Assembly (NCBI GenBank): GCA_949751835.1
Contig: CATKHK010000028.1
Location: 124,001 to 188,000, forward strand
From: Blepharisma japonicum
Taxonomy: Eukaryota > Ciliophora > Heterotrichea > Heterotrichida > Blepharismidae
Direction of reading: 5' to 3'
DNA length: 64,000 nucleotides
Shown piece after piece: positions 4,269 through 42,038 of the stretch (position 1 is its first letter; every line of letters begins with the position of its first letter). The position numbers and the translations under genes are program-made. The notes under the pieces were generated by a model. It ran no database searches, was not told the origin of the DNA, and was given only the letters and a program-made list of their open reading frames with translations.

Positions 4269-5399
4269 ATGTCAAAACTTTCAGCATTCTTATTACTCTT
4301 TTCAATTGCATTCTGCTGTGACCAAACCGAGCTCACTTCTCTTTCTCAAAATGATATTGTATGCCCCTCATACACCTGTAAACTTCCAACCCAAGAATTC
4401 TCCCTGGGCACTTGCGTTTATTATGACACAACTGGAAATGGGACTTATTATGTTACAAACTGCACAAATACAGCTAGTCCTTATTGTTCAGTAATAGCTG
4501 GCCAAAATAGCACCTGTGCAATAAAGCCACAACCCGCATCTAATTCTAAATATCCTGGTGAAAAATGTGTAAGTGATCTTGATTGTGGCACTTATGCGCC
4601 TCAAGGCTGTGTAGACGGAGTCTGCAAAGGCTCATCTGAAGGAGGATCCTGTCAAAGTCACGATATGTGTGATCCTGGGCTTTATTGTGCAAACTCCACT
4701 TGCAATCTTCAGATTGGAATTGGAAATAAAGGATGCACTACTGATGAAGAGTGCGTCAATAGTGCTGGATGTGATATAGCTCCAAATGCAGCAGAAGGAA
4801 CCTGTGTGAAGTATTTAAGTGTAGCTGAATATAGAAGAGTACAAACTTGTGACCAAATAAATCATATTAATAATTTTTGCCAATCGATGTTGTGCATCAC
4901 GCAGTGCCAATACTCTTATTGTCTGCCAAACTTGGCAAGCGAAAATAAGGCTCCAAATATTTGTAAAACGGAAGGAGATTGCAGTTCTGAGCAGGATAAT
5001 CAATTCAACCTGGTACTTTTTTCAAGCTGCAGTTGTGGGTATAATTCAAAAGGAAATGCATATTGCGGACTATTTCCAGGAGATAATGAATATAGCCAGT
5101 ATTTAGATAGCCTAAGCTCATATGTGAATAGTGACTCAATTTTGAATTGTAATGCAATAAGAAGATTTCACACAGTTTGCATGAAAGATTGATGGGGTGC
5201 CAAAAATACTGCAGTTTATTCTTATTATCTTATGGTTGTTAAGCAATATTCTAATATTCAAGAAAACGATGAGTGCGTTGAAAATGTCTTTAATGCGAAA
5301 TATATTAGTGCCTTACAGGAGTTTGACTACTATAACAATAACTTTGGAAGTGTTATGACTGTTTTGGCTGGGACTATTTATATAGGTATGATAGTTTAA
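4269..5399 (+). CDS. Secreted Cys-rich, probably GPI-anchored protein (copy 1)
   Basis: This 376-aa protein has a clear signal peptide (MSKLSAFLLLFSIAFCC) and about 40 cysteines in repeated short-spaced pairs (for example CVSDLDCGTYAPQGCVDGVC and CDPGLYCANSTC), followed by a hydrophobic C-terminus (GSVMTVLAGTIYIGMIV) without a basic tail. That pattern suggests a GPI-anchored cell-surface protein with disulfide-rich repeats. The middle resembles prokineticin/dickkopf-like small Cys-rich folds only in spacing. A TGA at 5190-5192 is read as Trp in MKD-W-WG; the downstream paralog has TGG at the same place, which validates the readthrough. It lies 116 nt upstream of its tandem paralog. Surface coat or immobilisation-antigen-like roles are possible but unproven. 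Confidence 0.88.
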
Positions 5400-5515: not shown

Positions 5516-6631
5516 ATGGAATTCAAGTTTGCAACTTTATTTTGTATTATTTCATTGTCAGCTTGCAAATATACTGACGAGATGCACTTAGAAGAATCTT
5601 CCATCATATGTCCATCTTATACTTGCCAAGCATCAGATCAAAAATTCGCTGATGGAACATGCATTTATTACTCATCTGCAGCCTCAACTTATTATGTATC
5701 AGGCTGTAGCTCTACTCAGACTCCTTACTGCCCTCCGTCAGTGGGACAAAATAGCACTTGTACATATATACCATCTTCAACTCCTACAACTAAGTGGCCA
5801 GGCGAAAGATGCTCAAGCTCTTCTCCTTGTAGTTCCAATGCTATAAACGGCTGTGATAACGAAGTTTGCAAAGGATCAGCTTACAATAGCCAGTGCTACA
5901 CAAATGATAACTGCAATCCAGGCTATTACTGTGCAAATAATCGATGCATTGCTCAAATAGAAATTGGGAAGCCCGGATGCATCAATGACTATCAATGCGT
6001 TAATAATGCTGGCTGTGATGTTTCTTCTTCTGCTTTAAGTGGAGTATGCGTTGAATATTTTAGTCTGGCTGACTACTCAGAGGTCAAAAATTGCAACGGA
6101 TATATCAATTTATTATGCAAATCCTCACTTTGTGGTAATGATGATGGTAAAAAAGCATGCATAAGCCAATTAGCAAGCCAAAAAGATACACCAATGGTAT
6201 GCACGAGCAATAATAATTGCACGTCTAAGATTGATAGTAATTATGGGTCAATTATGCTATTTTCTACATGCAGCTGCGGGTATAATAATAAAGCTGAGGC
6301 TTATTGTGGATTATTCCCAGGAGATTCAGTATACAGTAGATATTTAGAGCAAGCTCGGATTTATGTGAAAAATATAGCAATCCAATATTGTAATACAAAT
6401 AGAAGATTTAATGTTGAATGCATGAAAGACTGGTGGGGTAAAAAAGAAGCTTCAACCTTTAATTATTATTTAGCAGCTGTTACTTATTATGCTGCAGTTC
6501 AGAATAGCGAAGATTGCGTTTTGAATGTTTATAATTCATTATACCAAAGCATCAAGAAAGATTATAATACTGAGTCCTTAGGCATATTGACTGCAGTTAT
6601 TGGAGTTGCTTATGTAAGTATCTTAATTTAA
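5516..6631 (+). CDS. Secreted Cys-rich, probably GPI-anchored protein (copy 2)
   Basis: This tandem paralog of the gene at 4269-5399 is 371 aa long and collinear over its whole length. It has a signal peptide (MEFKFATLFCIISLSAC) and the same cysteine framework (CPSYTC, CNPGYYCANNRC, CSCGYNNKAEAYCGLFPGD), and ends in a hydrophobic tail (GILTAVIGVAYVSILI) fitting a GPI-attachment signal. All Trp codons in the conserved CMKDWWGKK segment are TGG here, whereas copy 1 uses TGA for the first one. No catalytic motif is visible. Outer surface location is inferred from the topology signals; function is unknown. Confidence 0.9.
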   Translation: MEFKFATLFCIISLSACKYTDEMHLEESSIICPSYTCQASDQKFADGTCIYYSSAASTYYVSGCSSTQTPYCPPSVGQNSTCTYIPSSTPTTKWPGERCSSSSPCSSNAINGCDNEVCKGSAYNSQCYTNDNCNPGYYCANNRCIAQIEIGKPGCINDYQCVNNAGCDVSSSALSGVCVEYFSLADYSEVKNCNGYINLLCKSSLCGNDDGKKACISQLASQKDTPMVCTSNNNCTSKIDSNYGSIMLFSTCSCGYNNKAEAYCGLFPGDSVYSRYLEQARIYVKNIAIQYCNTNRRFNVECMKDWWGKKEASTFNYYLAAVTYYAAVQNSEDCVLNVYNSLYQSIKKDYNTESLGILTAVIGVAYVSILI

Positions 6632-6870: not shown

Positions 6871-8175
6871 ATGGTATCCAGAAGATTTAGCATCATATTT
6901 CTTTTGTTAGCTTCTTCAATTGCACTTACCGAAGGTGAAAAATTACTTGGGGACACTGATGGGACATGAAATTATCTTGGGTATAACGGCTATGCTGGAA
7001 ATGTTCTTATGAATCCTTTAACAGGCTCATCTTATTTCTATTGGCTATTTAATGCAATCAATGGAAATATTTTCAGCGATAGCTTGCCGTTAGTTATATG
7101 AATTTGGGGAGGGCCAGGCTGTTCTGGAGATATGGCTATGATGTATGACAATATTGGCCCGTTTATATTGAATAACAATGGACAGCCAGTTACAAATCCT
7201 TTAACCTGGACCAACAACTACCATGTAATGACAATTGATCATCCACTAGGCACTGGGTTTTCATTAGCAAATGCGCCTTCTGACTTTGCTAATTCCACGA
7301 CTTCTGCGTCTAATGCCTTATATAACTTTTTGGTAAAATTGGCTCAAAAATATCCAACTTGGTTTAATAGAGATCTTTACTTTTTTGGAGAAAGTTATGC
7401 TGGACATTGAATTCCTGGGATTGCTTATAAAATAATAAGTGAAAATAACAGCCCTAGTCCATTGTTCCATTTTAATCTGAAAGGTATTGGAATTGGAGAT
7501 CCATGGATAGACCCAGCAACGCAAGGCAATTATTCAGGCTATGCTTATTCAAATTCCTATATAGATAAGGAAGAACTTCAGATAATACAATCATATGAGC
7601 AAAGCATGAGTAAAGCTTTAAATGCGTCTCAATTGCTTAAAGCTCATCAAGATTGGAGCTACATTTTAGATCTGACCCAAAAATATTCAGGAGGGTTCAA
7701 CATTTATAATGTAAGAGAATTTACCCAGCTAAATTCCACCCTCTATGCTAACTGGTTAAACCTAAATACAACCAAAATAATGCTTCATGCACCATTAAAC
7801 GTTACTTGGGTAGATTGCAGTGATCCGGTTTACAATTATTTGGTGACAGATATGATGATCACTGTAGGAAATTTACTTCCTTACATTATTGACAATATTA
7901 AGGTACTTATTTGGAATGGTCAAGACGATTTTATGGTAAATACACTGTCAACTGAGAACATGCTCAATAGTCTGAAATGGACAGGAATTTCAAATTTAAT
8001 CAATTCGAATAAGATTGCATGGAAAGTCAACGGAAGCATTGCTGGGTATGTAATAACTTATCAGACGTTAAGTTATGCGCTTCTGTTGAAGGCAGGGCAT
8101 ATGGGATCACATGATCAGCCAGCAAATGCACGGGATATGATCAATAGATTTATTAACAACCAAGGATGGAACTAA
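6871..8175 (+). CDS. S10 serine carboxypeptidase, copy A
   Basis: This is a 434-aa secreted serine carboxypeptidase of family S10 (clan SC alpha/beta hydrolase). The signal peptide is MVSRRFSIIFLLLASSIALT. The substrate-binding WGGPGCSG motif is followed by the nucleophile in GESYAGH (Ser about 175), the catalytic Asp in GQDDF (about 353) and His in KAGHMGSHDQP (about 410). S10 enzymes release C-terminal residues at acid pH, so lysosomal/food-vacuole digestion or secretion is likely. In-frame TGA encodes Trp at GT-W-NYLG, VI-W-IWGG and AGH-W-IPG, positions normally Trp in the family. First of four head-to-tail copies, each 434-435 aa. Several N-glycosylation sequons are present. Confidence 0.95.
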
Positions 8176-8460
8176 ATTCTTTAAATTATTTAAGATAACT
8201 TAAAGGATAAGTCGTCAATTAAGTTTTATTGTTTTAAATAAATTAATTTAAATCGGCAGCAAAGATTATTCATCCATGAAGCACCAGCTGTCTTCTAGCT
8301 TTAACTATATAAAATTTTAATTATTTAGATTCGATAAAGTTGACTCTCAGAGTTTCTATCATTGTTTGGAGTTATTTCAAAAGTATCTAAAGGTGAATTT
8401 TATCTTCCATTGTTTTGGGGAAAATAATAATAATTTCACCATAAGAAATAAGAAGTATAG

Positions 8461-9765
8461 ATGAGAATAAAATCATTGAATTTGGCACTTTTTCTTGTAG
8501 TAATGCAATCATCTGCTCAAAGTGAAGGACTTCTTGGAGACACAGACGGTGAATGAAATTTTCTTGGTTTTACAGGATACGCGGGGGAAGTTGTAATAAA
8601 TCCTTTAACTGGCTCGTCTTATTTCTATTGACTTTTTCAAGCAATTCAAGGTAATATCTTAACTGATAAGTATCCTCTAGTTATTTGGCTAGCAGGGGGT
8701 CCTGGCTGTTCAGGCGATCCTGCAGTTATATTTGATTATATTACTCCTTTTATCATAGATGATAATGGTGAGCCTATTTTGAATCCAAATAACTGGGTAA
8801 ATCAAGTTCATTTCATGGCAATTGATCATCCAATAGGAACCGGATTTTCATTCTCAAACTCTCCAAATGATTATAAAAATAATACATCTGGAGATACAAA
8901 TCAATTATACACACTTTTAGTTAGACTAGCTCAAAAATATCCAACCTGGTTCAATAGAGATCTTTATATCTTTGGTGTAAGCTATGGAGGAAAGTGGGCT
9001 CCTGCGATTGCTTATAAGATTTTAAGTGAAAATCAAGGCCCAAGCCCTCCTTATCGATTTAACCTTAAAGGGATTGGAGTTGGAGACCCTTGGACCAACC
9101 CTGCAGTTCAAACTTCATTTTATGGTTATGTTGCGTATTCAAGTGGATTAATAAACCAAGAAGAACTTAGTATAATTCAAGCTTATGAGCAAGAAGTTCA
9201 AAGCCAGATTAGTTCTGGAGATTTCTATGGAGCCCAAAACAATGTAGGCATGATTATGGAGCTCATATATGAATATACAGGAGGAATTAACACTTATGAT
9301 ATAAGAAAATTTACTGACTATAACTCTACAGCTATAGAATACTGGCTCAATTTGAATTCCACAAAAGCACTCCTGCATGCCCCACTGAGTATGGAGCACC
9401 ATGGCTGTAGCAGCGAAGTCTATAGCATGACAACTGATTTTATGGAATCTTCAGCTATGCTATTTCCGTATATCCTTGATAATATTAATGTCTTGATGTG
9501 GATAGGACAAGATGACTTACTCCTCAATACCCCTTCAGTAGAAAACCTCGTAACTAATTTTAACTGGCCAGGCATTCAAGGTCTGCTTAATACAAATAAA
9601 ATGATTTGGAAAGTAAATGGAACAGTAGCTGGATATGTAAAAAATTATTCAACATTTACATTTGTGCATCTCTTAAAGTCAGGACATATTGGATGCCATG
9701 ACCAACCTCTTAATTCGAGGGATATGTTTTTTAGGTTTATTTATAATGAAGGCTGGCAACAATAA
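8461..9765 (+). CDS. S10 serine carboxypeptidase, copy B (variant nucleophile motif)
   Basis: This 434-aa paralog of copy A has a signal peptide (MRIKSLNLALFLVVMQSSAQ). It keeps GGPGCSG, a catalytic Asp in GQDDLLLNT and His in KSGHIGCHDQP. The nucleophile motif is changed: GVSYGGKW replaces GESYAGHW. The Glu before the catalytic Ser is replaced by Val. In carboxypeptidase Y the equivalent Glu helps bind the substrate C-terminal carboxylate and shifts the pH optimum, so this copy may differ in specificity or pH profile (inference). Trp codons are a mix of TGG and TGA (for example GE-W-NFLG and YFY-W-LFQ use TGA). Spacing from copy A is 285 nt. Confidence 0.94.
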
Positions 9766-9923
9766 TAGATTTAAGCAACTTTAATAAGCTAATAAATCTA
9801 CTTAATTATCGACCAATAAAGCAATAAAATAAGAATATAATGGGTTCTTAAAGAAGGGAATTTGATATTCTGATTTAATTCTTTTAGATTTTAATATTAT
9901 TTTATAGGAAAATAGATTTGAAA

Positions 9924-11228
9924 ATGGGTAAATTACTATACTTTACCTTAGTTTTATTCCCAATTTTGCAAGTTTTATCACAAAGTGAAAATCTTTTAGG
10001 TGATACAGATGCTGAATGAAATTTGCTTGGCTACAGCGGCTACGCCGGAGAAGTTGTTATAAATCCATTGACTGGCTCATCCTATTTTTACTGACTTTTC
10101 CAAGCAAATCAAGGGAATATTTTTGCAGACAAACGTCCTTTAATTATATGACTATCAGGAGGTCCAGGGTGCTCAGGTGATACCTATTTAATATTTGACA
10201 ACGCTACCCCTTTTATCATAAACAGCAATGGCCAGCCAGTTCCAAATCCATATGCATGGACAGGTGAATATCATTTAATGACAATTGATTATCCTTTAGG
10301 AGTTGGATTCTCATTCGCCAACTCACCCTATGATTATAAAAATACTACAACTGGCGATTCAAATCAGCTCTATAACTTCCTCATCAGATTAACGCAAAAA
10401 TACCCAGCTTGGTTTAACCGAGATATTTATTTCTTTGGGGAAAGCTATGGAGGCCATTGAGTCCCAGGGATTGCTTATAAAATTTTAAGTGAAAACCAAA
10501 GCCCAAACCCTCAATTTAAATTTAACCTTAAAGGTATAGGAATGGGAGATCCTTGAATAGATCCTTCAACCCAAACTTCTTCATATGGCCATTATGCATA
10601 TTCAAGTGGGCTTATAAATCAAGAAGAGCTTCAAATTATTGAAACATATGAGCAAGAACTGCAAACTGAGCTCAGCTTAGGAAATTTTGGTGACGCTTAC
10701 ATGAATTGGGGTAATATTTTAGGCTTGACAGCTGAATATTCAGGCGGAATAAACATATATGATATTAGACAATACACAAATTATAATTTTACTATAATTG
10801 AAAATTGACTTAATTCAAATGAAACAAAAACAATGCTCCATGCTCCCTTGGATATTGTGCATGAAGATTGCAGTCTTGCAGTATATAATATGACTCAAGA
10901 TTTTTTATCGTCAACAGGAATTTTACTTCCTTATATCCTTGACAACATCAATGTTTTAATATGGATCGGGCAAGATGATTTTATCGTCAACACCCCAGCT
11001 ATAGAAAATACTATAGCCAATATAAATTGGCCTAATATTCAAAACCTAATCAATACAAATAAAATTATTTGGAGGGCGAACGGCCAAATTGCTGGATATG
11101 TCAAAAATTTTTCGACCTTTACATTTGTATCACTTATGAAATCAGGGCATATGGGATCACATGACCAGCCAGTTAATGCCAGAGATATGCTATATAGGTT
11201 TATCAATAATGAGGGTTGGCAGCAGTAA
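9924..11228 (+). CDS. S10 serine carboxypeptidase, copy C
   Basis: This 434-aa member has a signal peptide (MGKLLYFTLVLFPILQVLSQ), SGGPGCSG, the nucleophile in GESYGGHW, Asp in GQDDFIVNT and His in KSGHMGSHDQP. At least six Trp codons are TGA (AE-W-NLLG, FY-W-LFQ, II-W-LSGG, GGH-W-VPG, DP-W-IDP, EN-W-LNS), so a standard-code reading breaks it into short fragments. It is closest to copy B by eye in the N-terminal half. Spacing to copy D is only about 50 nt. Extracellular or vacuolar proteolysis is the expected role. Confidence 0.95.
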
Positions 11229-11280
11229 TAGTAATAATTCTAATATTAGATTCTCCCATATAGATAAATTTGGGGAAGAA

Positions 11281-12588
11281 ATGATAAATATGAGACCTAT
11301 TTTCTTTTTGCTTCTTTTAGGAATCGCTTTTTCTTTAGAAAACGATACACCTTTACTTGGGGACACAGATGGCCCTTGGTCTTATTTTGGGTATACAGGA
11401 TACTCAGGAGAAGTAGTAATAAACTCACTAACAGGATCATCTTATTTCTATTGGCTGTTTCAAGCAATCAAAGGAAATATCTTGACTGACAAGCTTCCAC
11501 TTATACTTTGGTTTGAAGGTGGTCCTGGCTGTACTGGAGAAATAGGAATATTTTATGACAACATCGGCCCTTTTCTCATAAACAATCAGACTCAGCCTGT
11601 AAATAATCCTCTTACCTGGACAAATAATTTTCACGTAATGATTATCGATTATCCACTAGGAACTGGCTTTTCATACGCTAACTCTCCATCTGATATGACA
11701 AACACCACAACTTCAGCATCAGCCCAACTCTACAACCTACTCGTAAAACTCGCCAAAAAATACCCTACCTGGTTCAATAGAGATATTTATATTTTCGGAG
11801 AAAGTTATGCTGGACACTGAATTCCTGGTATTGCTTATAAAATTTTGAGTGAAAATAAGAGTACAAATCCTCCTTATAAATTCAACTTAAAAGGCATTGG
11901 GATGGGAGATCCATGGGTGGACCCTCAAACTCAAACGCAGACATATTCATATTATGGATCTCAGACAGGATTGATTAATCAAGAGGAAAAATCGATCATT
12001 GCTCAATATGAAAGCACTGTGCTTCAAATGATGAATGCTGGAAACCTAACGCAAGCTATGAATGAGACTGATACGTCCGTTGATTTAGTTGCACAATATG
12101 CAGGTGGGGTTTCTATTTATAATGTTAGGATTTTTGAATCCTATCCTTCTTTAGGACAATTTCCAGCTTGGCTAAATTTAAATTCAACTAAAACTCTGCT
12201 TAGAGTCCCTCAGAATTTAGTATGGGAAGATTGCAACCCTGAGATAAATACTGCTATGGCAGTAGACGTCATGACCTCATTTATTAATTTAATGCCTTAT
12301 ATAATAGACAATATAAAGGTTGTTATATATAGTGGGCAGGATGATTTAATTTGCAATACAATAGGACAAGAATTAATGATTTCGAAAATAAATTGGCCTT
12401 ATATTAAAGAATTTATGGGGTCGATAAAAAGAGTGTGGAAAGTTAATGGAGAAGTTGCTGGTTATGCTCAAAGTTATAAGAATCTTGCTGCGATATCAAT
12501 AATGAAGTCTGGGCATATGGTAGGACATGACCAACCATTACATCTGAGAGATTTAGTAATAAGGTTTGTCAACAATCAAGGATGGTAA
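11281..12588 (+). CDS. S10 serine carboxypeptidase, copy D
   Basis: This 435-aa fourth copy starts at ATG 11281 (a second in-frame ATG at 11290 is equally possible) and has a signal peptide (MRPIFFLLLLGIAFSLE). It has GGPGCTG, GESYAGHW with the Trp encoded by TGA, GQDDLICNT (closest of the four to the canonical fungal and plant GDLDLICN) and KSGHMVGHDQP, the canonical His motif. All catalytic residues are present. The final 227 nt plus the 3' flank recur in decayed form at about 15123-15340, showing that the duplication block of the next region included this gene's tail. Confidence 0.95.
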
Positions 12589-14128: not shown

Positions 14129-15025
14129 ATGGGCTGCTTGGGATGCCGAAATCTTTTCGGATGGAGAAGGATATCATTCTGGTTGCATATTTCCTTTAGA
14201 GTTTTTATTATAGGGATTTGTGTGTGATCAGGGATTTTCTTTGGTATTTATTTGCCATTGCTTAAGAGAGACTACAAAGAAGGCAAATGTACAATAGACA
14301 GAGTTGATAAATTTTCTTTCAAGCATGCAGTTTATTATAGCTACACTGTATATGTAAATATAAGCAACATTCCATATCAAGCTTATGGTTGCAGTACTAC
14401 TGATGGAGAATATACCATCGGAAAAGAATGAGCTGCCGGATCTTATCCTTATCTATATTCTGATTGCAAAACAGACAGTGTTGTAGCTCATGGTAAACCT
14501 TGTCATGATGATCAGCTATTTCAACCTCTCTGGACTTGCCGTGATACAAGTGCTGTATTTGCTGATCTTGAAACTGTCCCTTGCAAATGATGACTTGCGA
14601 ATGATGTTGATTCTGAAACTGAACCATCTAAAATAAAAAATCTCAAATATCCTTCCAAAGGAAAAGCTTGAATAGAGGTGATTTTCATGGATGAAGTATA
14701 CATACCAATAATTCATTATATATTTCTTTGGGTTGCTCCTTTCTTTATTTTAACTTGTGGATCACTTGTAATTCTAGGGTGATATAACTATGGATTTTAT
14801 TTTTTGGGATATAAACAAGAATTTAAAAGAGATATTATTTATTACTATATGAAATATATAAGAAGAAACAAACACATTAGAAAAATATATGGGCCTACTC
14901 ATATTGAGGCTATTGAGAATAATAGAGTAGTCTCAACAAATATTTTTTTGATGTCAATTCTGCATAGCGAAAGAATGTCGAAATTTCCTAAAACTCTGAT
15001 AAGAAGCACAACTCAATACTTTTAA
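14129..15025 (+). CDS. Two-TM Cys-rich protein family, member A1
   Basis: This 298-aa protein is of a family I do not recognise. The N-terminus MGCLGCRN is a potential myristoylation/palmitoylation signal. TM1 spans about residues 21-46 and ends in GIYLPLLKRDYKEGKC. A roughly 150-residue ectodomain has conserved cysteines in YGC, DC, PCHDDQLF, LWTC and CKWW, followed by AWIEVIF and YIP before TM2 (about 198-225). A basic cytoplasmic tail of about 70 residues ends in SKFPKTLIRSTTQYF. Six Trp are TGA and four TGG, so it is fragmented under the standard code. Topology (short cytosolic N-terminus, Cys-rich loop, cytosolic C-terminus) recalls two-TM channel or channel-accessory proteins, but no sequence motif supports that. 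It heads an array of similar genes to 23.7 kb. Confidence 0.85.
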
Positions 15026-15122
15026 ATTGAAAGCTGATGAAATGAACTTTAGTAGTTTCTTAATGATTTAAATAAATAGAATTAAATGATTATCAATTTA
15101 ATATTAAAGACAAGCGCTAGCC

Positions 15123-15340
15123 TAGGACAAGAATTAATGATTTGAAAAATAAATTGGCCTTTTATTAAAGAATTTATAGGGTTGATAAAACAAGTCTGAA
15201 AAGCTAATGGAGAAGTTGCTGGGTATACTCAAAGTTATAAGAATTTAACTGCCATATCAGTATGAAGTCGGGAAATATGATAGGGAAATAAGCAGCCATT
15301 TCATCTGATAAGATTTGTCAGCAATAAAGGTAGTGTTAAG
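15123..15340 (+). pseudogene. Decayed 3' end of an S10 carboxypeptidase (relic of copy D)
   Basis: This stretch aligns by eye with 12362-12588, the last 227 nt of carboxypeptidase D (for example GGACAAGAATTAATGATTT and GTTGCTGG). It has in-frame stops, small deletions and loss of the catalytic His context. The homology continues into the 3' flank (TAAGATTTTTAA, CTCCATTATTAAAT) up to about 15465. It lacks the upstream three quarters of the gene. It marks the left edge of a tandem duplication that carried the S10 tail together with a two-TM gene. Confidence 0.85.
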
Positions 15341-15734
15341 ATTTTTAATAACTCCATTATTAAATTTATTTTTAAAGTTTAGCTGTTTAATTAAATTAAT
15401 CATTATATAAAAATAAAATTTAATCTTCTTCTTTTTCCATTTTTCTGAAAATTAAAATTCTTATTAAAAACCATATTTTCCTAAATATTTTGGTCTTCTT
15501 TTTTCTTTAATATAATGTCGAGAAAATTATTTGAAGGCTTCTTATAAATCAATTGATGCTTTTTGATTATTTTTATGGTAATTCTTGAATTGCAATGTGA
15601 TATCCAAAGCTAACATAATATTTTTTTAAATATATAACAAATAATCAATTCAATTATTCTTCTAATAAATCTATTTCCTTTTGTTTAGCATTATAAACCT
15701 TTTACCATTATTTTGCAATATAAATCAATAATTA

Positions 15735-16634
15735 ATGGGTTGTTTGAGATGCTTCGACCTTTTCAGATGGGAAAAACGATACCTCATCAATTTTATTTTC
15801 TTTCCGATTTTTATTATAGGGGTTTGTGTGTGATCTGGGATTTTCTTTGGTATTTATTTGCCATTGCTTAAGAGAGACTACAAAGAAGGCATATGTACAA
15901 TAAACGAAGCTGATTTATTTTCTTTCAACAATACCATTTATTATTATGGCTACACTGTATCTGTAAATATAAGCAACATTCTATATCCAGCCTATGGTTG
16001 CAGTACTACTTATGGAGAATACTCCATCTCCAATGGATGAGCCGCTGGATCATATCCTTATCAATATGCTGATTGTCACGCAGACACTGTCGTAGCTCAT
16101 AATAAACCTTGCTATGATGATCAGCTATTTCAACCCCTCTGGACTTGTCGTGATACAAGTGCTGTATATTTTAAACTTGCAACTGTCCCTTGTAAATGAT
16201 GACTTGCGAATGATATTGATTCTGAAACTGAACCATCTAAAATAAAAAATCTCAAATATCCTTCCTATGGAAAAGCTTGAATAGAAGTGATTTTCATGGA
16301 TAAAGTCTATATACCCAAAATTGATTATATGGCTCTTTGGATTGCTCCTTTCTGAATCTTAGCCTGTGGATCAATTGTAATTCTTGGATGATATAACTGT
16401 GGAATTTATTTTGTGGGATATAGACATGAATTTAAAAGAGATATTATTTATTACTATATGAAATATATAAGAAGAAACAAACACATTAGAAAAATGCATG
16501 GGCCTCCTCGTATTGGGGCTATTGAGAATGATAGAACAGTCTCAACAAATATTTTTTTGATGTCAATTCTGCATAGCGAAAGAATGTCGAAATTTCCTAA
16601 AGCTTTGATAAGAAAAACAACTCAATACTTTTAA
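15735..16634 (+). CDS. Two-TM Cys-rich protein family, member A2
   Basis: This 299-aa protein is a close duplicate of A1 (same N-terminus type MGCLRCFDLFRW, same cysteine spacing, near-identical C-terminal 70 residues). TM1 lies around residues 20-46 and TM2 around 199-226. Trp is encoded by TGA at many sites (CV-W-SG, NG-W-AAG, K-WW-LA, KA-W-IEV, PF-W-ILA, LG-W-YN). Its upstream 250 nt match those of A1. Both N-terminal Cys are kept, favouring a lipidated N-tail. Substitutions between A1 and A2 are concentrated in the ectodomain. Role unknown. Confidence 0.85.
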
Positions 16635-16763
16635 ATAAAAACCGATAAAATGAACTTTAGTAATTGCTTAATGATATAAATAAATAGAATTAAATAATTA
16701 TTTAAGCTAATCCATTCTAATTCATTTTACTTGAATGCTTAATTTATAAATATTTATTGATAT

Positions 16764-17579
16764 ATATGTGCTTGAGCAGGAGTATTTTTTGTAATTTACT
16801 TTCCTTTAGTTAAAAGAGACTATAAAGAAGCTTCATGCACAATAACTGACTTCAAAACATTTTCTATTTCTACCTACTCATCAAGGAGCTACCACAGTTA
16901 TAGCCTAGACGTTAATATAAACAATAGAACGTATAAAGCTTATGGCTGTATATCTAATTCTGTTGAAACGATGATATCAACCGCAGTTATGACTAATTAT
17001 TATCCTTATAATTATGTGCCATGCGATTCGGATGGATATGTTATGCCTTTAGATAATTGCCTTGATGATCAAATATTTTTACCTTTATGGACTTGTAAAA
17101 ATGCATCAGATGCATATTTGACTGTAGGGTCTACTGTAAAATGCAAGTGGTGACTAGCTGATAAAGATGGAGAAACTGACCCAGCAAAATCAAAAAGCAT
17201 CACTTACCCTGCCTATGATAACTCTTGAATTGAAGTTCTTTTCAAAGATGAGATCTATATTCCATCTGATGATTATAATGCTTTGTGGGCAATACCTTTT
17301 GCTCTTTTTATATGTATTCCTTTGATTATAATAATTTGAATTAATTGTGGAATTTATTGCTGTGGATACTCAGAAGATTTTAAATTACTTTTTAATTATT
17401 GAAATACAAAATATATAAAATGCAAAAGAGCAAAAAAGCCTATTTTATTTCATGATGCTGATAAAACTGGAATTGACAAGAATATTTCAACAATTGCATT
17501 TCTTATGGCACTCACGAAAGGAAAACATAGTTCAAAATTCCCAAAATCTCTAATCAAAAGCACAATTAATTATCTATAA
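16764..17579 (+). pseudogene. Two-TM family, member C1, 5'-truncated
   Basis: The frame ending at TAA 17577-17579 encodes everything from the end of TM1 (C-A-W-AGVFFVIYFPLVKRDYKEASC) to the C-terminus, and is nearly identical to the intact C2 at 20569-21468. The first about 28 codons and the start ATG are missing. The frame runs back only to a TAA at 16740-16742, and the sequence immediately upstream (about 16690-16757) instead matches the 3' flank of A-type genes (compare 20180-20260). A deletion therefore fused the A2 3' flank to the interior of C1. The first in-frame ATG is at 16971, inside the ectodomain, so a functional product is unlikely unless an unseen upstream exon exists. Confidence 0.75.
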
Positions 17580-17727
17580 CTGTTTTAAATTATATATTGA
17601 TTTAATAAATTCGTAATTGTTTATATATTGGATCCTTTTAGATCTTAAATGATATAAAGGTAAAGCTAGAAATTTAAATTAGCAATTTTTATAATAAATC
17701 GATTCTAATATCTGTAATTATTAATAA

Positions 17728-18627
17728 ATGTGTAATTCTAAATGCTTCAATTGTAACAAAAGATCGTGCTTTGTTCTAAACGCAATTCTATTTTCATTTT
17801 ATGTGATGGGCATATGCATTTGAGCAGGAATTTTTTTTGTAGTTTACTATCCTTTGATTAGAAGAGACTATAAAGAAGCTTCATGCAGAGTTTCTGGTGT
17901 CACATCTTTTGCTATTACTGATGTTACAACGCACAGTTATCACAGCTATGACTTATACATCGATATAAATAACTCAACGTATAGAGCTTATGGATGCATT
18001 TCAGATTCTGCAGAAATGATCATATCAAATCCATATATGGGCCTTTATTATCCTTATATGTATACACCTTGTGATGATAGTTATTATGTTACACCTTCCG
18101 ACAGCTGCCTCGATGATCAGCTATTTCTACCTCTATGAACATGTAAAAATGCATCATATGCATATTTGAGTCCAGGAACTTCTTTTACCTGCAAATGATG
18201 GTTGGCTGACAAAGATGGAGAAACTGATCCGGCCAAATCAGAAAACATTACTTATCCAGGCTATGGGAATTCTTGAATTGAGGTTCTCTTTAAGGATGAT
18301 ATTTATATTCCAACTGATGATTACAATTCTTTGTGAGTGATTCCTTTTGGCTTTTTAACTATTATTCCTTTAATTTTTATAATTTGGGTTAACTTTGGAA
18401 TTTATTGTTGTGGGTATTCAGCAGAATTTAAACAACTTTTTACTTATTGATATTGAAAATATATAAAATGCAAAAAAGCAAAGAAACCATATGCGCACTA
18501 TGAAACTGGTAAAGTTGAAATGGACAAAAAACTTTCAACGATTGCATTTCTTATGGCTCTCACAAAAGGTAAACGCGCTTCAAAATTCCCAAAATCATTA
18601 ATTAAAAAAACAGTAAGTTGCTTTTAA
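17728..18627 (+). CDS. Two-TM Cys-rich protein family, member D1
   Basis: The 299-aa protein starts MCNSKCFNCNKRSC, a Cys-rich cytosolic N-tail without the Gly2 seen in A members. TM1 (about 20-45) ends YYPLIRRDYKEASC. The ectodomain keeps AYGC, YTPCDD, DSCLDDQLF, LWTC and CKWW. TM2 (about 205-232) is followed by GIYCCGY, and the tail carries KYIKCKKAKKP and KFPKSLIKKT. At least seven Trp are TGA. The paralog D2 at 21602-22496 is decayed, so this is the only intact D-type copy in the window. Confidence 0.85.
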
Positions 18628-18865
18628 TCTGCTTGAATTATAAATTGATAATTGTTTTTCTATTAAGTATATCTATTTGAATGCCAACTTGTAGAACACT
18701 TGTCTCCATATTTTATATAAAAAACAATTGAGATGATAGTATTCAAAAAATATTTATATATACAATTTTATTCTTTTAATTAAACGGAAACTGAAACAAA
18801 GCTTAAAGAAAATAATGATTTTTATTGAAATTCCAAGAATTGAGGAATTACTTTATTAAATTTAA

Positions 18866-18970
18866 TAATTATAAATCTAGTGATTATATGAAGCAGAAAA
18901 TCCTGATTTTGGATAAATTCAGTTTTATTTTCGTTGTATGTTGTAGGTTATGCATTTGAATAAGATCAAG
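18866..18970 (+). pseudogene. Two-TM family, member E1, 5' relic
   Basis: About 100 nt match the start of E2 (22793 onward), including CAGAAAATCCTGATTTTGGAT and ATGCATTTGA versus ATGTGTTTGA. The start codon is lost and stops are present. The homology stops abruptly near 18970, where unrelated sequence begins. The upstream flank (18690-18865) also matches the E2 upstream flank. Confidence 0.7.
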
Positions 18971-19640
18971 ATCAATATTATTGGGCCATTTGAGGTAAAT
19001 CATTATCTATCACCTTTTCTACCCTAGTCTCCATAGACCTCGGAACTCAGATAAGTGGAATAGAATTCTGTCATTTTGGATATTAGAACTGAACCACCTG
19101 TTCCAGGAATCAGCTTCTGGGCAGAACACCCTGAAAATTTCAATTGGGATAGAATATGTGGTAGCAAAAATTTTGTTGCCTAAGGAAGAGTATGCGCAGA
19201 TAAGGGCCGATAATTGAAGCAGATGAAACTATTCAAAATTCACAGCTATCTCAAGATTGCACACATAAGCATAGGAGGATTTGAAAATGAGCTGGATGAG
19301 ATAGAAAAAAATGCTGTCAGAAAAAGAGTTTGGCATTCAGGAATTTATGAAACCAATTTGGGACAAAGATCTGATTCTTGGATGGATTATTTTTGAAAAG
19401 AAATATAAGCGCAAGGCTATACCCTTTCAAGAGCAAAATAGTTACATAAAGCTAGAATTATAATACTTGATAATTGTGGATGTTTATGATCCGGTAGAAT
19501 TTGAAGGAAAAAAAGCAAGAGATAAATTATTTGACAGCTTGATTCACGAAATTCTGAGTGTAAACTTCAAAGTTAAAGTTAAGTGTTTTGTGCTAATAGA
19601 GGATAAGAATGCCTATATTATAGGGTTTTGCCTCAGCTAA
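18971..19640 (+). pseudogene. Unrelated decayed coding segment inserted in the array
   Basis: This stretch interrupts the paralogous alignment. It contains several coding-like pieces in different frames with TGA as Trp: one reading NSDKWNRILSFWILELN from about 19053, one at 19224-19407 (KNAVRKRVWHSGIYETNLG, ending at TAA), and one from about 19472 to 19638 (IIVDVYDPVEFEGKKARDK). Each is broken by a frameshift or stop from the next. The set looks like one decayed gene rather than random DNA. I cannot name the family. Confidence 0.45.
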
Positions 19641-19746
19641 AACAAATGGGAATGAATAAATTCACTTATTTTTCTGATAAGTCTATTTTCTTCTATTTAG
19701 CATTATAAGCTATTTGCTATTGTTTTGCAAAATAAATCAATAGTTA

Positions 19747-20146
19747 ATGGGATGCTTAAGATATTAAAACTATTTCAGATGGAAAACTAAGCAGTTTGTT
19801 ATTGAGAGGGAAGGGATGGGTTTTATGCTTATTTAAAAGTCTACATACCCAAATTATAATATATATTTCTTTGGATTGCTCTTTTCTGGGTCTTAACTTA
19901 TGGAAGTTTGTGATTCTTGGATGATATAATTGCGAAATTTATTTGTGGGACATAGACATGAATTTAAACGAGACGTTATTTATTGCTTTATGAAACATAT
20001 AAAATGAAACAAACATATTAGAAAAATTTATGGAGCTGTTGAAAATGATAGAACAGCCTAAACAAATATTATTTAATATCAATTCTGAGTAGATTGTTGA
20101 AATTTCCTAAAGCTTTGATAAGAAAAATAGTTTAATATTTGAATAA
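19747..20146 (+). pseudogene. Two-TM family, member A3, decayed with internal deletion
   Basis: The upstream flank and start (ATGGGATGCTTAAGATATTAA) match A1/A2, but the seventh codon is a stop. Most of TM1 and the ectodomain are deleted. Homology resumes around 19840 (TCTACATACCCAAATTA) and runs through TM2 and the C-terminal tail with frameshifts and stops. Roughly 500 nt are missing relative to A2. Confidence 0.85.
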
Positions 20147-20568
20147 AGTCTAAAGAAATGAAATTTAGAAATTTCTTAATGGTATTAATAAAATTAAATA
20201 GTTATTCCATTTTAATTCGTTTTACTTAAGTTGCTTATTTTATAAATATCTTATCGAGTTATTTTAGTTTTATTCAATATTAAACCTAAAAAATTATAAG
20301 GGTAATATAGTTTGGTTATTAAGATTCTTAAAGAATAGCAAGATTGCTTTAAATTTGAAATAAAATGTTAATATTATTAGCTAGAATCAGATTAAACTTT
20401 ATAAATTTAATTTATTACATAAGTAGTTAAATATGATACAGATAACCATATATTGAAGCTATTGGTCAACAAATTTTATTTATATGATTTACCCTGACTA
20501 TTTTTAAGGAAGAAGATTCAATTTTTCTTGATTTAATATAGAGGTACCATTTTATGTAACTGTTAATA

Positions 20569-21468
20569 ATGTGTAAATCAAAATTTTACAGATGCGGCAA
20601 AAAACCTTGCATTTGGATCAATGCAATTTTATTTTCATGCTATGTAATCGGTATATGGATTTGAGCAGGAATATTTTTTGTAATCTACTATCCTTTAGTT
20701 AGAAGAGACTATAAAGAAGCTACATGTACAGTCACTGGTTTCACAACATTTTCTATTTCTTCCTCTTCATCAAGGAGCTACCACAGTTATAGCCTAGACG
20801 TTTATATAAACAATAAAACGTACAGAGCTTATGGCTGTATATCTAATGCTGTTGATACAACGATATCAACTGATGTGATGCTTTCTTATTATCCTTATAA
20901 TTATGTCCCATGTGATTCGGATGGATATGTTTTACCTTTATATGAATGTCTTGATGATCAAATATTTTTACCTTTATGGACTTGTAAAAATGCACCAGAT
21001 GCATATTTGACTGTCGGGTCTACGATAAAATGCAAGTGGTGACTAGCTGATAAAGATGGAGAAACTGACCCAGCAAAATCAAAAAGTATCACTTACCCTG
21101 CCTATGATAACTCTTGAATTGAGGTTCTTTTCAAAGATGAGATCTATATTTCATCTGGTGATTATAATGCTTTGTGGGGAATTCCTTTTGCTCTTTTTAT
21201 ATGTGTTCCTTTGATTATAATAGTTTGGATTAATTGTGGAATTTATTGTTGTGGATATTCAGAAGAATTTAAACTACTTTTTAATTATTGAAATACAAAA
21301 TATATAAAATGCAAAAGAGCAAAAAAGCCTATTTCATTTCATGATGCTGATAAAACTGAAATTGACAAAACGATTTCAACAATTGCATTTCTTATGGCAC
21401 TCACGAAAGGTAAACATGGTTCAAAATTCCCGAAAAATTTAATAAAAAGCACAATTAACTACCTATAA
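20569..21468 (+). CDS. Two-TM Cys-rich protein family, member C2
   Basis: This intact 299-aa member starts MCKSKFYRCGKKPC. TM1 (about 20-45) includes W-I-W-AGIFFVIYYPLV. The ectodomain keeps AYGC, YVPCDSDGY, ECLDDQIF, LWTC and CKWW. WIEVLFKDEIYI precedes TM2 (about 206-230), which ends in NCGIYCCGY. The tail contains KYIKCKRAKKP and KFPKNLIKSTINYL. Four Trp are TGA and six TGG. The gene is invisible as one ORF under the standard code. C1 at 16764 is a near-identical but truncated copy. Confidence 0.85.
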
Positions 21469-21601
21469 TTTTTTTAAATTGCATATTACATTTAATAAAT
21501 TGATCATTGCTTGTATGTCAGATCTTTTAGACATTTAGTGATAAAATTTTAAATTAGCAATTCTTATAATAAATTGACACTATTATTTGTGATTATAATA
21601 A

Positions 21602-22496
21602 ATATATTGATCCTAAATATTTCAATTGCAACAAAGCTAATTTCTATATGATCAACCTGATGGTATTTTTTGTTTATGTGCTAGGAATATTCATTTAAGG
21701 AGGAATATTTTTTGATGTTTACTATCCTTTGATTAGAAGAAACTATAAAGAAGCTACATGCATAGTTTCTGGTGTCATATCTTTTACATTACTGATACTA
21801 ATATGCACCATTATCACAGCTATGCCTTAAACATCGATATAAATAACTCAAATGTATAGAGGTTATGGATGTGTATCAGATTCTGCAGATATGATCATAT
21901 CAAATCCATATATGGACACTTACTATCCTTATTTGTATACTCCTTGTGATGATAGCTATTATGTTAATCCTTCCGACAACTGCCTTGACGCTCAGTTATT
22001 TTTACATCTGTGAATATGTAAAAATGCATCATCTGCATTTTTGAGTGCAGGCGCTTCTTTTATCTGCAAATGGTGATTGACAAAGATGGAGAAACCAACC
22101 CAGCAAAATCCGAAATATTACTTATCCAGGATACGGAAATTCTTGAATTGAGATTCTCTTTAAGGATGATATTTATATTCCAACTGATAATTACAATGCT
22201 TTGCGAGTGATTCCTTTTGGCTTTTTAACTATTATTCCTTTAATTATTGTAGCTTGGGTTGACTTTGGAATTTATTGTTGTGGGTATTCAGCAGAATTTA
22301 AACAACTTTTTACTGATTGATATTGAAAATATATAAAATGCAAAAAAGCAAAGAAACCATATGTGCACTATGAAGGTGTTAAAATTGAATTGGACAAAAA
22401 ATTTCAACGATTGCATTTCTGATGACCATCACAAAAGGCAAGCATGCTGCAAAATTTCCAAAATCATTAATTAAAAAAACAGTAAGTTGCTTTTAA
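21602..22496 (+). pseudogene. Two-TM family, member D2, decayed full-length copy
   Basis: This aligns with D1 from start to stop (shared flank AATTTTAAATTAGCAATT and shared end AGTAAGTTGCTTTTAATCTG). The start ATG is ATA, the TM1 region has frameshifts (CATTTAAGGAGG in place of CATTTGAGCAGG), there is a 1-nt loss near 21781, an insertion at 21850 and a short deletion at CAAATGGTGATTGACAAAG. It cannot encode a full protein. Confidence 0.88.
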
Positions 22497-22631
22497 TCTG
22501 CTTAAATTATAAATCGATAAATATTTTTCTATTAGTGTATATCTATTAGGATGTCAACTTGTAGAACACTTGGCTCCATATTTTATATAAAAAACAAAAG
22601 CAATTGGGATGGCAATACACCAAAAAATATA

Positions 22632-22675
22632 TATACTCTCTCAGCACAAACAACAATGTGTGCTGTGGGAGTATA
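22632..22675. repeat. Small hairpin inserted in the E2 upstream flank
   Basis: TATACTCTCTCAGCACA and TGTGCTGTGGGAGTATA form an imperfect 17-bp inverted repeat around a short loop (AACAACAATG). In the paralogous flank of E1 (18750-18780) the neighbouring sequence AAAAAATATTTATATATAC runs directly into AATTTTATTC, so the hairpin is an insertion in one copy. Confidence 0.65.
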
Positions 22676-22792
22676 AACAATTTTTACTTTTTATAAAAAA
22701 GAAACTGAAACGAAGCTAAAAGAATTATTATTAAAAACCTAAATAAAATTAATTTTTAAGAATATGAAAAATTATTTTACTAAATTTAATAA

Positions 22793-23692
22793 ATGTGTAT
22801 ACCTATAGCTTGTAAACGCAACAGAAAATCCTGATTTTGGATTAATGCAATTGTATTTTCCCTCTATATGATAGGCATATGTGTTTGAGTAGGACTTCTC
22901 TTTATAATTTACTATCCTTTGATGAAAAGAGATTACAAAGAAGCTTCATGTACAATTACTGATTTAACTTCTTTTACTATATCTGCTACTTATTTGGTAA
23001 CTTACCACAGTTATGGTCTAGACATTTATATAAACAATAAAACGTACAGAGCTTATGGTTGCATATCAGGCTCTTCAGAAATGATGATATCAGAAACAGT
23101 TATGAGTATGTATTACCCTTATATGTATATTCCATGTGATAATAGTGATTATATTAGCCCTGCTAATAGCTGTTTAGATGATCAGCTATTTTTACCCTTA
23201 TGAGCATGTAAAAATTCATCATATGCATATTTGACTGTCGGGTCTACTTTAAACTGCAAGTGATGGCTAGCTGATAAAGATGGAGAAACTGATCCAGCAA
23301 AATCAAAAGGCATCACATACCCTGCCTATGATAACTCTTGAATTGAGGTTCTTTTCAAAGATGAGATCTATATTCCACCTGATGATTATAATGCTATGTG
23401 AGCAATTCCTTTTGCTCTTACAGTATGTGTCCCTTTGATTATAATAGTTTGGATTAATTGTGGAATTTATTGTTGTGGATATTCAGGAGAATTCAGACTG
23501 CTTTTCAGGTATTGAGAAGCAAAATATATAAAATGCAAAAGAGCAAAAAAGCCATATGGATATTATGAAATTAATAATGTTGAGATGGATAAAAAAGTTT
23601 CAACAATTGCATTCCTTATGGCGCTAACGAAAGGCAAATACGCTTCAAAATTTCCAAAATCATTAGTCACGAAAACAGCAAATTACTTATAG
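22793..23692 (+). CDS. Two-TM Cys-rich protein family, member E2
   Basis: This 299-aa member starts MCIPIACKRNRKSWFW and ends at TAG. TM1 ends LLFIIYYPLMKRDYKEASC. Ectodomain cysteines are in AYGC, YIPCDN, NSCLDDQLF, LWAC and CKWW. TM2 is followed by GIYCCGY and a tail with KYIKCKRAKKP and KFPKSLVTKTANYL. Trp is TGA at CV-less sites such as KS-W-FW, CV-W-VG, PL-W-AC, KW-W-LA, NS-W-IEV and AM-W-AIP. The second half is more like C-type members than the first half, consistent with a mosaic. It is the last gene of the array, followed 99 nt later by the stop of a convergent EF-hand gene. Confidence 0.85.
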
Positions 23693-25047: not shown

Positions 25048-25596
25048 CTATTTTTTTAAATTTGTCACATAAGACAAATAAGAGTTCCAAAAAAGTGCAA
25101 CAAAATTCACAAAAAGTACTTGGAAGTGCAAAGGAACAAAATTGAAATTGATAACCATCGCAAGTGGCCAAATTCTTCAGTTCATTTTAAGAGCTTCCCA
25201 GAAATCTTCTTTTATTTTTGTGACACCTGCGGATAAACCAGCGTTATTCATTAATGGGACAGCAGTAAAAAAGGAGCATATAACAAATGATGAGAAAAGA
25301 GTTTGGTCAAGAAAAACCTTTTTTGCCGTTGAAATCACACCTTTTTGAGGGAATAATACTGCAAGAAGTCCATACCAGTTATGAAGAATCGGACCGAGAT
25401 AAAATCCTCCAAATAAGCTGAGTTTTAGATATCTGGGGAAATCGAAATTTTGTATGAAAGGTCTATTATGAATTTTGCTTTCAATATATTGGCTTAAAAC
25501 ATCTCCTAACCCTACTGTGCAAAATGTTGAGATTGACTTAGTAAGCAATGGCCGAGCGTTCAGGTTTCGATTGTAAAAACTGAGAAATTTCGCCAT
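25048..25596 (-). CDS. Mpv17/PMP22 family membrane protein, copy 1
   Basis: This 182-aa protein is of normal length for the Mpv17/PMP22 family. Motifs are Y.R.L..RPLLTKSISTF near the N-terminus, GDVLSQYIE, the GP.LHNWYG motif (GPILHNWYGLL), LDQTLFSSFV and the C-terminal signature (NWRIWPLAMVINF, then FVNFVALFWNSYLSY). The TGA at 25174-25176 is the family's invariant Trp of NWxxWP; under the standard code the last 43 residues would be lost. Family members are four-helix proteins of the inner mitochondrial or peroxisomal membrane. A tandem paralog lies 54 nt upstream. Confidence 0.93.
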
Positions 25597-25650
25597 TTAC
25601 TTAAAATTATCAATTATATCGCATTAGGAATTAAATTATTTAATTTGAAC

Positions 25651-26202
25651 TTATTTTTTATAGTTCGATAAGTAGGATAAATAAGCGTTCCAAAATACAG
25701 CAACAAAGTTGACAAAGATTACCTGAGTATGGAGAGGAATAATTGAAAAATTAATCAACATCACTGGAGGCCAAACTTTCCAGTTTACAACAAGAGCTTC
25801 CCAGTAATCTTTTTTAATTTTCTCTTGAGCTTGTTGCAGAGTGCCACCATTAAATAAGGTTGCAGCTGTAAAGAAAGACCAAATGCACCAACTGCAAAAA
25901 AATGTTTGGTCAAGTGACAACTTCTTTATAGTTGACAAAGCACCAGGAGCTGGAAAAGTTTTCGCTAAAAACCCATACCAGCCATGCAGAAGTGGGGCCA
26001 AATAAAAGGCTCCATAGCAGCTCAGCTTAAAGCACCTTTTATAATCAAAATTCTGAAGGAATGATTTGCTTTGAAGCCTGCTTTCAATATATTGACTTAC
26101 AGCGTCACCAGCCCCTATGATGAAGAAGGTGGAAATTGACTTTGTTACCAAAGGACGTGTATTAAGGGCACGGTTATAGGCCGCGATAAGCTGGATTACC
26201 AT
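25651..26202 (-). CDS. Mpv17/PMP22 family membrane protein, copy 2
   Basis: This 183-aa tandem paralog of the preceding gene has the same motifs: RPLVTKSISTFF, GDAVSQYIE, LLHGWYGFL, LDQTFFCSW and NWKVWPPVMLINF...FVNFVAVFWNAYLSY. Here the Trp codons are TGG, which confirms the TGA readings in copy 1. Four hydrophobic helices are expected. Mitochondrial or peroxisomal membrane location is from family knowledge. Confidence 0.94.
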   Translation of the reverse strand: MVIQLIAAYNRALNTRPLVTKSISTFFIIGAGDAVSQYIESRLQSKSFLQNFDYKRCFKLSCYGAFYLAPLLHGWYGFLAKTFPAPGALSTIKKLSLDQTFFCSWCIWSFFTAATLFNGGTLQQAQEKIKKDYWEALVVNWKVWPPVMLINFSIIPLHTQVIFVNFVAVFWNAYLSYLSNYKK

Positions 26203-40298: not shown

Positions 40299-41954
40299 TT
40301 ATTCATTAAATTCTATTCTATCTAACATGTCTTTATCTTCAAAAGAAGACTCATATGAGTCTTCCTCTGATCCAACTGATGATAATTCTCCAATATTTTC
40401 AGGCAGCTTATACGTAATAGCCACATCTTCAGATATCCCTAAATGTACTTCATTATTTGCCAGGGCACATTCATTTCCAGTCTTTGAGCTAAAAGATGTC
40501 TTTAAGTTATCTAGTATCCTTATCCTGCCATTCTTCAAGTCAAAGCTCCACACATTTTTAGATGTTTTTATTCCTGCCCCACAGTTTCCCCCAAACAGTA
40601 AAATTTCATTTTTTACCATGCAAGCCCCCATATTGCTTCTGCTTTCAGGAAGCTGAACATCCAGCAAATTTCATTTTCCATTTCAGACTTCAATATTATA
40701 AAGTATTGTTCCATCAGAGACACCTCCAAATACATAGACTAATTCGCCTACATTAATGCAAGTTGCATGCGATCTTGGATAATTCAAAGATGAAGAGAGA
40801 GTTCATTTGACACCATCAAGAGTGTAAACTTTGTCAACTGGCGATTTGTCTAGGCCCCCAATTATTGCTGGCATATTGTTGATAAAAGCCATACAATGCA
40901 AACGAATAGGTTTTGGCTTTGGTAAATTCTGGATATAACCATTACTAACATCAATTTCTATACTAATTCTGGCCATTCCTCCAGTAACAATTATATGTTT
41001 TTTACTTGACCAGAGGAATGCAGTGCCTTTTAGGTCTTGAACGCAATTTAAGGTCCTTTTTTCGCCGATCAGAGGGCTATAGAGTATTATTTTGGGGCCA
41101 TTGGTCACTATTAAAAGGCTCTCTCCAGACTTAGAAAGAAACCTTTTTACAAGGCTGCATTCATTCCATTTATTTTTATTTCTCTCCTCTGATATTGAAT
41201 TTTCTCGATTTAAAGCTGAAGAATTGAGTTCACTAATTAACTGCTCTGAAAAGCCAGACTCCCTTAAATTTCCCAAAAGATCTTTATTAATTGTCTTTGA
41301 AAAGAAATTTCTTGTATAATCTAATAAAGAGTTCAAACCTGCACATGTTTCATCCATTGACCCATTGCATAATTGAATTTCATTAAAGCATTTAGAATTA
41401 ACATCGCATAGTATTTTGACTTGCTCTATTGCATTTATTATCAAGCTCTCAATTGAGCTTTTAGTACTGTCTAGTATAATTTGCTTTTGTTTAGTAATTG
41501 TGTCAAGCAATCTTTCATAATTATTTGAACTGGCAATGGTAGAATTAAATACATCTCTAAATTTTTCTTTGCCAATTTCCTTTAGAGGTTTTGGATGATT
41601 ATTCATAGCTTGAGGTATGTATTTTCTTTCTTCAAATTCAGGGATCGCATTTGCTTTGCTTACTGGGATAGGAATTGACCTCGAGATATTTTCAACACGA
41701 TCAGCTGAGAGCTTTGGATATATGTTAAGAGTTTGATTTGATTGACTATCGATAAGCCCTTGATTATCATTAATTCTATCCTGTTCTGAGTAAAGACCAG
41801 GCTTGATAAGGGTATTATTAAATTTCTTATCTGGAATGGAAATTTTGCCTTGAAATTTTGGCCAGTCTTGATTCAGAGGCTTTTTCACAGTATTTTTACT
41901 TTTCTTTTTGCTGCTCTCAGCTTTATTTTCTACTTTTTGACCCAAGTCCGACAT
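40299..41954 (-). CDS. Kelch-repeat protein, copy 1
   Basis: The 551-aa frame reads TGA as Trp at 40800-40802 and twice near 40685. The N-terminal 240 residues are charged and contain a helical stretch (ITKQKQIILDSTKSSIESLI). The C-terminal 300 residues form Kelch blades: IIVTGGMARISIEID, MPAIIGGLDKSPVDKVYTLD, LVYVFGGVSDGTILYNIEVW, EILLFGGNCGAGIKTSKNVW, with the GG and distant aromatic pattern of the repeat. Kelch propellers mediate protein binding. A shared IPDKKFNNTLI motif near residue 42 also occurs in copy 2. The final 25 residues are acidic. Confidence 0.88.
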
Positions 41955-42038
41955 CTAAGTATAGATAACTTAAGATCTTTATTATTAACTAGCTAAAAAA
42001 TGAAAACTCTATAATGAATTAAAAATAAATTAATTTGT

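Follow-up and report, generated by a model that had tools for sequence, protein, structure and literature searches.

Which protein family is encoded by the tandem gene array at positions 14129-23692 of a stretch of Blepharisma japonicum DNA, and what might its members do? The stretch, hereafter the window, comprises 64,000 nucleotides (C28:124001-188000) of an assembly of 45,185,585 bases in 224 contigs, and all coordinates refer to it unless another contig is named. The array belongs to a real, genome-wide ciliate family of membrane proteins with a cysteine-rich ectodomain. As judged by sequence comparison, this family is unrecognised by the libraries that we searched (Pfam, NCBIfam, PHROGs and PDB sequences), and its members probably serve as surface or channel-accessory proteins specific to the lineage, this function being a prediction.

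Open reading frames (ORFs) were called from ATG to stop, with TGA read as tryptophan and TAA and TAG as stops. The window then holds five uninterrupted family genes in tandem, all on the forward strand and encoding 298 or 299 amino acids, as the first-pass annotation of this DNA had proposed: gene 1 (14129-15025; 298 amino acids, six in-frame TGA codons, stop TAA), gene 2 (15735-16634; 299 amino acids, 76% identical to gene 1) and the genes at 17728-18627, 20569-21468 and 22793-23692 (299 amino acids each, the last ending in TAG). Each gene carries four to seven in-frame TGA codons and terminates in TAA or TAG, and TGA is found at conserved tryptophan positions, for example within the motif CKWW. 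Under the standard code, the longest ATG-initiated ORF in any forward frame of each gene reaches 58, 58, 41, 54 and 93 codons. The earlier remark that most members lack a standard-code ORF above 100 codons is thus confirmed for ATG-initiated frames, while stop-to-stop reading in the gene frame exceeds 100 codons in three of the five genes (104, 125 and 104, with 80 and 80 in the others). Three head-to-tail units of the telomere repeat CCCTAACA matched the genome 77 times in forward and 91 times in reverse orientation, the reversed-pattern control giving no match, and among the matches listed the CCCTAACA runs lie at very low or high contig coordinates, as at chromosome ends. According to the account in PMC9942806, Blepharisma stoltei has the same telomere unit, an AT content of 66%, a genome of 41 Mbp and 25,711 genes annotated with UGA already read as tryptophan, which weakens the concern, raised at first pass, that such genes may have been missed in annotations.

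The five window proteins share two hydrophobic regions with six cysteines between them, in agreement with the proposed layout of two transmembrane helices (TM1 and TM2) around a cysteine-rich ectodomain. The fixed cysteines attributed to this ectodomain were also recovered, although its length is about 160 residues instead of 150. In three of the five proteins the hydrophobic regions appear as single hydropathy peaks, and in two an overlapping chain of peaks covers the second region. Pairwise identity ranges from 40 to 76%, well above what chance would give (E no higher than 1e-65 among the pairs displayed). In the gene at 20569-21468, the first row of our family alignments, the TM1 peak spans residues 20-38 (20626-20682), the ectodomain approximately residues 42-200 (20692-21168; cysteines 53, 90, 115, 127, 139 and 155) and the TM2 peak residues 201-219 (21169-21225), followed by a basic tail with the motif SKFPK (21226-21465), which is expected to be cytosolic and occurs only in the long-tail subfamily defined below. 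The N-terminus of the window proteins is basic (three to five positive and zero to two negative residues) and their tail strongly so (14-17 positive, four to six negative). Both termini are therefore expected to be cytosolic, since the positive-inside rule assigns basic termini to that side of the membrane. The list of motifs given at first pass holds in outline, with small differences between the copies: YGC, CKWW and SKFPK (listed as KFPK) are present in all five proteins, but KRDYKE is exact in three, with RRDYKE in the remaining two, CLDDQLF is exact in two, with the variants CLDDQIF, CHDDQLF and CYDDQLF, and LWTC is found in four, the protein at 22793 having LWAC.

The family forms a tandem array, as first described, but is not confined to it, because further members and a second subfamily are found on six other contigs. 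Protein searches of the genome gave at least 23 matches for the gene at 20569, at least 26 for L023, at least 23 for L012 and at least 27 for L018, these sets overlapping. Our member set consists of 19 loci without in-frame stop, all from the same 45.2 Mb genome: the five in the window, one each on C27 (L010), C26 (L012), C21 (L018) and C129 (L019), six on C119 (L014, L017, L020, L022, L023 and L024) and four on C116 (L015, L016, L021 and L026). The damaged copies of the window, those at C119:6168-6821 and C21:192909-193328, and L025 on C116 were excluded; L025 has one in-frame TAA at a site where its C119 counterpart, L024, is open. The starts of these two contigs (C116:1-7783 and C119:1-10575) run parallel, with short-tail arrays and main blocks of 87-98% identity, and C119 also contains L023 and a broken copy of L014 type in inverted orientation. 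The two starts could represent haplotypes or result from a segmental duplication.

A midpoint-rooted tree, in which the tool flagged long branches, separates seven long-tail members (those of the window, C27 and C26) from 12 short-tail members with support 100/100. The homology of the two subfamilies is clear at the profile level (hhalign probability 99.7, E 1.6e-26, 201 columns). Short-tail proteins terminate soon after TM2 and have eight to ten cysteines between the hydropathy peaks. Long-tail proteins have six, and carry a basic tail of about 75-80 residues closing with a FLM...SKFPK...Y block that is less pronounced in L010 and L012; basic residues outnumber acidic ones in the tails of all seven. 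Two hydrophobic regions are present in all 19 members (as single peaks in nine and overlapping peaks in ten), at least six cysteines lie between them in every case, and N-glycosylation sequons occur there in 14. Eighteen positions are invariant: G28, P42, Y71, C90, Y110, Y112, C115, C127, P135, W137, C139, C155, K156, L159, Y176, P177, I184 and Y199. Four more, Y40, C53, P109 and D198, are kept in at least 90% of members, C53 being present in 18 and replaced by serine in L019. G28 lies in TM1, and in TM2 P214 is found in 17 of the 19.

The ratio of nonsynonymous to synonymous substitution rates (dN/dS) was computed by the Nei-Gojobori method with our own script. Among the ten window pairs it lies between 0.22 and 0.44 in nine and at 0.74 for genes 1 and 2, the synonymous rate for pairs across the two window groups (1.3-2.2) being near saturation. 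Most pairs are under purifying selection. When regions were separated, leaving out the saturated pairs L015/L019 and L010/L012, the ectodomain gave 0.32, 0.29, 0.17 and 0.12 in four of five close short-tail pairs, with 0.73-2.48 for the N-terminus plus TM1 of the same four (few changes each). By these ratios the ectodomain is the constrained part of the short-tail proteins. In four window pairs it gave 0.67, 0.42, 0.23 and 0.22. Nothing pointed to diversifying selection on the ectodomain, dN/dS being below 1 in all nine computable pairs.

The first reading of these proteins could not place them in a known family, and neither could we: no credible match was obtained in Pfam, NCBIfam, PHROGs (three of the 19 members scanned) or PDB sequences. 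Pfam gave a single chance match for the five window proteins (E 0.11) and, for the 19 members, six families, none of which is a channel family and each matched by a single member (best E 0.095). NCBIfam matches were likewise restricted to single members (best E 0.029), and the best PHROGs match had an E of 0.22. Profile searches of the PDB with all members, the long-tail set and the short-tail set gave no credible match. Two candidates from these searches were rejected as unsupported by the other profiles: LRP1 (E 8.8, all members) and ERV1 (E 0.028 with the long-tail profile, 2.2 with all members, none with the short-tail profile). The sulfhydryl oxidase ERV1 resembles the long-tail profile in its W.C ... 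C.W spacing. However, ERV1 is a soluble, helical, flavin adenine dinucleotide-dependent enzyme with a CxxC motif, and no CxxC occurs in the window ectodomains. DUF3592 (PF12158), a family of two-TM proteins with a small ectodomain, likewise has two TM helices flanking a segment of Y.Y.V.V.I.G type, but its model has no match in the genome (three of 14 control genomes being positive) and is absent among the Pfam matches of the members. Scans of IMG/VR viral sequences (130 pattern matches) and GTDB prokaryote genomes (84 pattern matches) yielded no relatives; among eukaryotes, the search covered the family's own genome. Nothing on the family was found in open-licence PMC papers.

By topology, the nearest functional analogue would be the beta subunit of animal BK channels (KCNMB, CaKB; beta4 in PDB 6v22). 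As described in PMC6934384, beta4 has two TM helices and a 120-residue extracellular linker with four disulfides, forming a crown over the Slo1 pore. The present proteins are likewise predicted to have two TM helices around a single cysteine-rich linker, of about 160 residues, with the first cysteine shortly after TM1. In contrast, the order of cysteines past the first is not reproduced in the profile alignments, the long-tail members carry their tail of about 75-80 residues, and the genes belong to a ciliate multigene family arranged in tandem. The idea that the KCNMB disulfides are nested was abandoned, since the pairing published for the conserved cysteines of beta2 is C1-C5 and C6-C8 (PMC6298698). 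For the comparison with KCNMB1-4, controls came from shuffling, rotating and reversing, and from 32 unrelated segments taken from other proteins of the window. In hhalign, the family gave a single match of 38 columns, with P 0.017 and a probability of 2.7%, that covers TM1 and the first cysteine; one of 60 shuffles scored higher at a block size of 10 and one of 60 at a block size of 20, and the global mode gave no sensible alignment. Global profile alignment of the ectodomain reached z values of 2.48 for all members (3 of 500 shuffles as high), 2.30 for the long-tail set (13 of 500) and 2.77 for the short-tail set (3 of 500), and no profile rotation scored as high (0 of 75, 0 of 73 and 0 of 76). 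For the short-tail set plus one long-tail row, scores as high came from 2 of 150 shuffles, from none of 150 local shuffles and from none of 76 rotations. Single members ranged from z 0.5 to 3.7 with a mean of 1.65, against a mean of 0.31 for the unrelated segments, the 19 members being non-independent sequences in these statistics. Nevertheless, three of the 32 unrelated segments reach z 2, the highest (2.83) being level with the family profiles. Since these score as well or nearly so, we do not claim homology with BK beta subunits; a weak tilt toward a relation with KCNMB remains, drawn from sequences that are not independent. The first cysteine is matched to KCNMB1-4 in both subfamilies, while later cysteines are paired differently. 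The earlier suggestion of a channel subunit is possible, although the BK-beta comparison is not clearly above its controls, and on topology it is possible that these proteins work in the manner of a BK beta subunit.

Between the intact genes, the array contains damaged copies and remnants, all on the forward strand. A 5'-truncated copy (16722-17576) has lost the start and the first half of TM1; from residue 28 of the gene at 20569 onward it aligns with that gene without gaps at 91% DNA identity. Another copy (21609-22494), with several frameshifts, is 86% identical in DNA to the gene at 17728. One remnant corresponds to the N-terminal and TM1 coding part (18892-18948; tblastn E 7.6e-05), and the other is a frame-broken C-terminal half (19748-20141), nearest to genes 1 and 2. 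This architecture looks like ordinary tandem birth and death. Directly after the TM1 remnant, about 700 bases between array copies (18949-19660) contain no long coding frame and, among the matches listed, resemble no other part of the window. A serine carboxypeptidase (S10) fragment (15123-15262, forward strand) is caught in the interval separating genes 1 and 2 and is 88% identical to 12362-12501 within its source gene (11161-12585, Peptidase_S10). This source belongs to four serine carboxypeptidase-like genes in tandem (6871-12588, forward strand) immediately upstream of the array; the two that were scanned match the Pfam family Peptidase_S10 (8461-9762, E 3e-71; 11161-12585, E 1e-85), the other two being alike by DNA repeats. 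Further upstream, 4269-5399 and 5516-6631 (forward strand) are a tandem pair that by eye encodes secreted-looking cysteine-rich proteins, the first without a Pfam match at E 0.001. On the reverse strand are a tandem Mpv17/PMP22-like pair (25048-26202; the first assigned by Pfam, the second by eye) and a neighbouring pair of genes similar to each other by eye (40299-43562), the second of which (42039-43562) has kelch repeats.

How, then, might these proteins function? Tentatively, and from sequence features, we propose that they are non-pore, disulfide-locked accessory or recognition subunits at the cell surface, in a birth-and-death family. In such a protein, a short N-terminus would lead into TM1, followed by the cysteine-rich ectodomain (about 160 residues), TM2 and either a short end or a basic tail. 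Both ends would lie in the cytosol, and the protein would sit on the cell surface, or in a compartment of the secretory route, with its ectodomain cysteines joined in disulfides. The paired helices would bind a partner protein, of which an ion channel or transporter is the most plausible, and the rigid ectodomain would cap or modulate it; the long tail could act as a cytosolic anchoring or sorting segment, and the many copies would diversify the complexes. In favour of this proposal are the two hydrophobic regions, the shared cysteines, the basic long tails, the lack of a TM-core position that is polar in both subfamilies, the low ectodomain dN/dS of four short-tail pairs, the ratios of 0.22-0.44 in nine of ten window pairs and the like layout of beta4. 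Candidate partners are present, as all five genome matches to the BK_channel_a domain exceed the Pfam cut-off. Several observations weigh against this proposal. The BK_channel_a matches carry no information on binding, the BK-beta resemblance is one of layout, with sequence tests within or near the control range, and CaKB (PF03185) has no match in the genome at E<=10, a search for which the 14 control genomes offer no eukaryotic positive control. L019 lacks one of the six shared cysteines, the ectodomain dN/dS of the short-tail pair L016/L014 is 0.91 (one synonymous and four nonsynonymous changes), and constraint on the ectodomain does not clearly exceed that on the other regions in the four window pairs. 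Finally, genes 14129 and 15735 show a dN/dS of about 0.75, which may mean that part of the array is drifting. This last ratio, with the two damaged copies and two remnants among five intact genes, would also suit an array made mostly of decaying copies of one functional gene and of little function itself, but the five open frames, the retention of all six cysteines and the dN/dS of 0.22-0.44 in nine of ten pairs make this improbable.

A surface receptor or a recognition/adhesion family, whose ectodomain would bind a ligand or partner cell (e.g., a mating gamone) and whose tail would signal, is a doubtful but serious possibility. The tandem expansion, copy-number difference and decay, the sequons in 14 members and the tail common to the long-tail subfamily are consistent with it; in contrast, the ectodomain is without a sign of diversifying selection and Pfam detects no known signalling domain in the proteins. 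Putative gamone 1 receptors are mentioned in the excerpted text of PMC10892320, with no molecule named there. A pore assembled from several subunits of two TM helices each, of the P2X or ASIC/ENaC kind, shares the order TM1, cysteine-rich ectodomain, TM2. Toward the outer end of TM1 the 12 short-tail members carry E or Q, and their TM2 begins on the outer side with Q; in the five window genes, TM2 retains Asn 222 at its inner end. However, the TM1 position is F, Y or L in long-tail members, and among the 19 no position of the TM cores is conserved as polar in both subfamilies, which disfavours a pore and leaves the channel suggested at first pass unsupported. The ectodomains of P2X and ASIC are moreover much larger, and no credible Pfam or PDB match points to a channel; we regard a pore as quite unlikely. 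Similarly, true if distant homology with the animal BK beta subunit seems hardly probable. The same layout, the register of TM1 and the first cysteine in hhalign, and the ectodomain and single-member z values above shuffles, rotations and the mean of unrelated segments speak for it. Against it are the low hhalign probability, the shuffles and unrelated segments that score as high, the differing cysteine pairing between subfamilies, the non-independence of the members, and the absence of CaKB both from the genome matches and from the Pfam matches of the 19 members. Returning to the accessory-subunit proposal, its most specific form is that a multigene set of auxiliary subunits with two helices and a disulfide crown, long- and short-tailed, arose in Blepharisma-type ciliates, apparently independently of animals, caps and tunes their own K+ or Ca2+ channels and is turned over by tandem duplication and decay; in this full form we consider it unlikely.

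To our knowledge, the membrane physiology of Blepharisma and its mating receptors are little known at the molecular level. The present family, new to the libraries searched, adds to this a set of membrane proteins in two subfamilies, with 19 members and clear alignment landmarks. If they are not channel auxiliary subunits, they would represent one more lineage-specific orphan family, of which ciliates have many; if they are, the BK-beta architecture would have arisen a second time or would have a very deep root.

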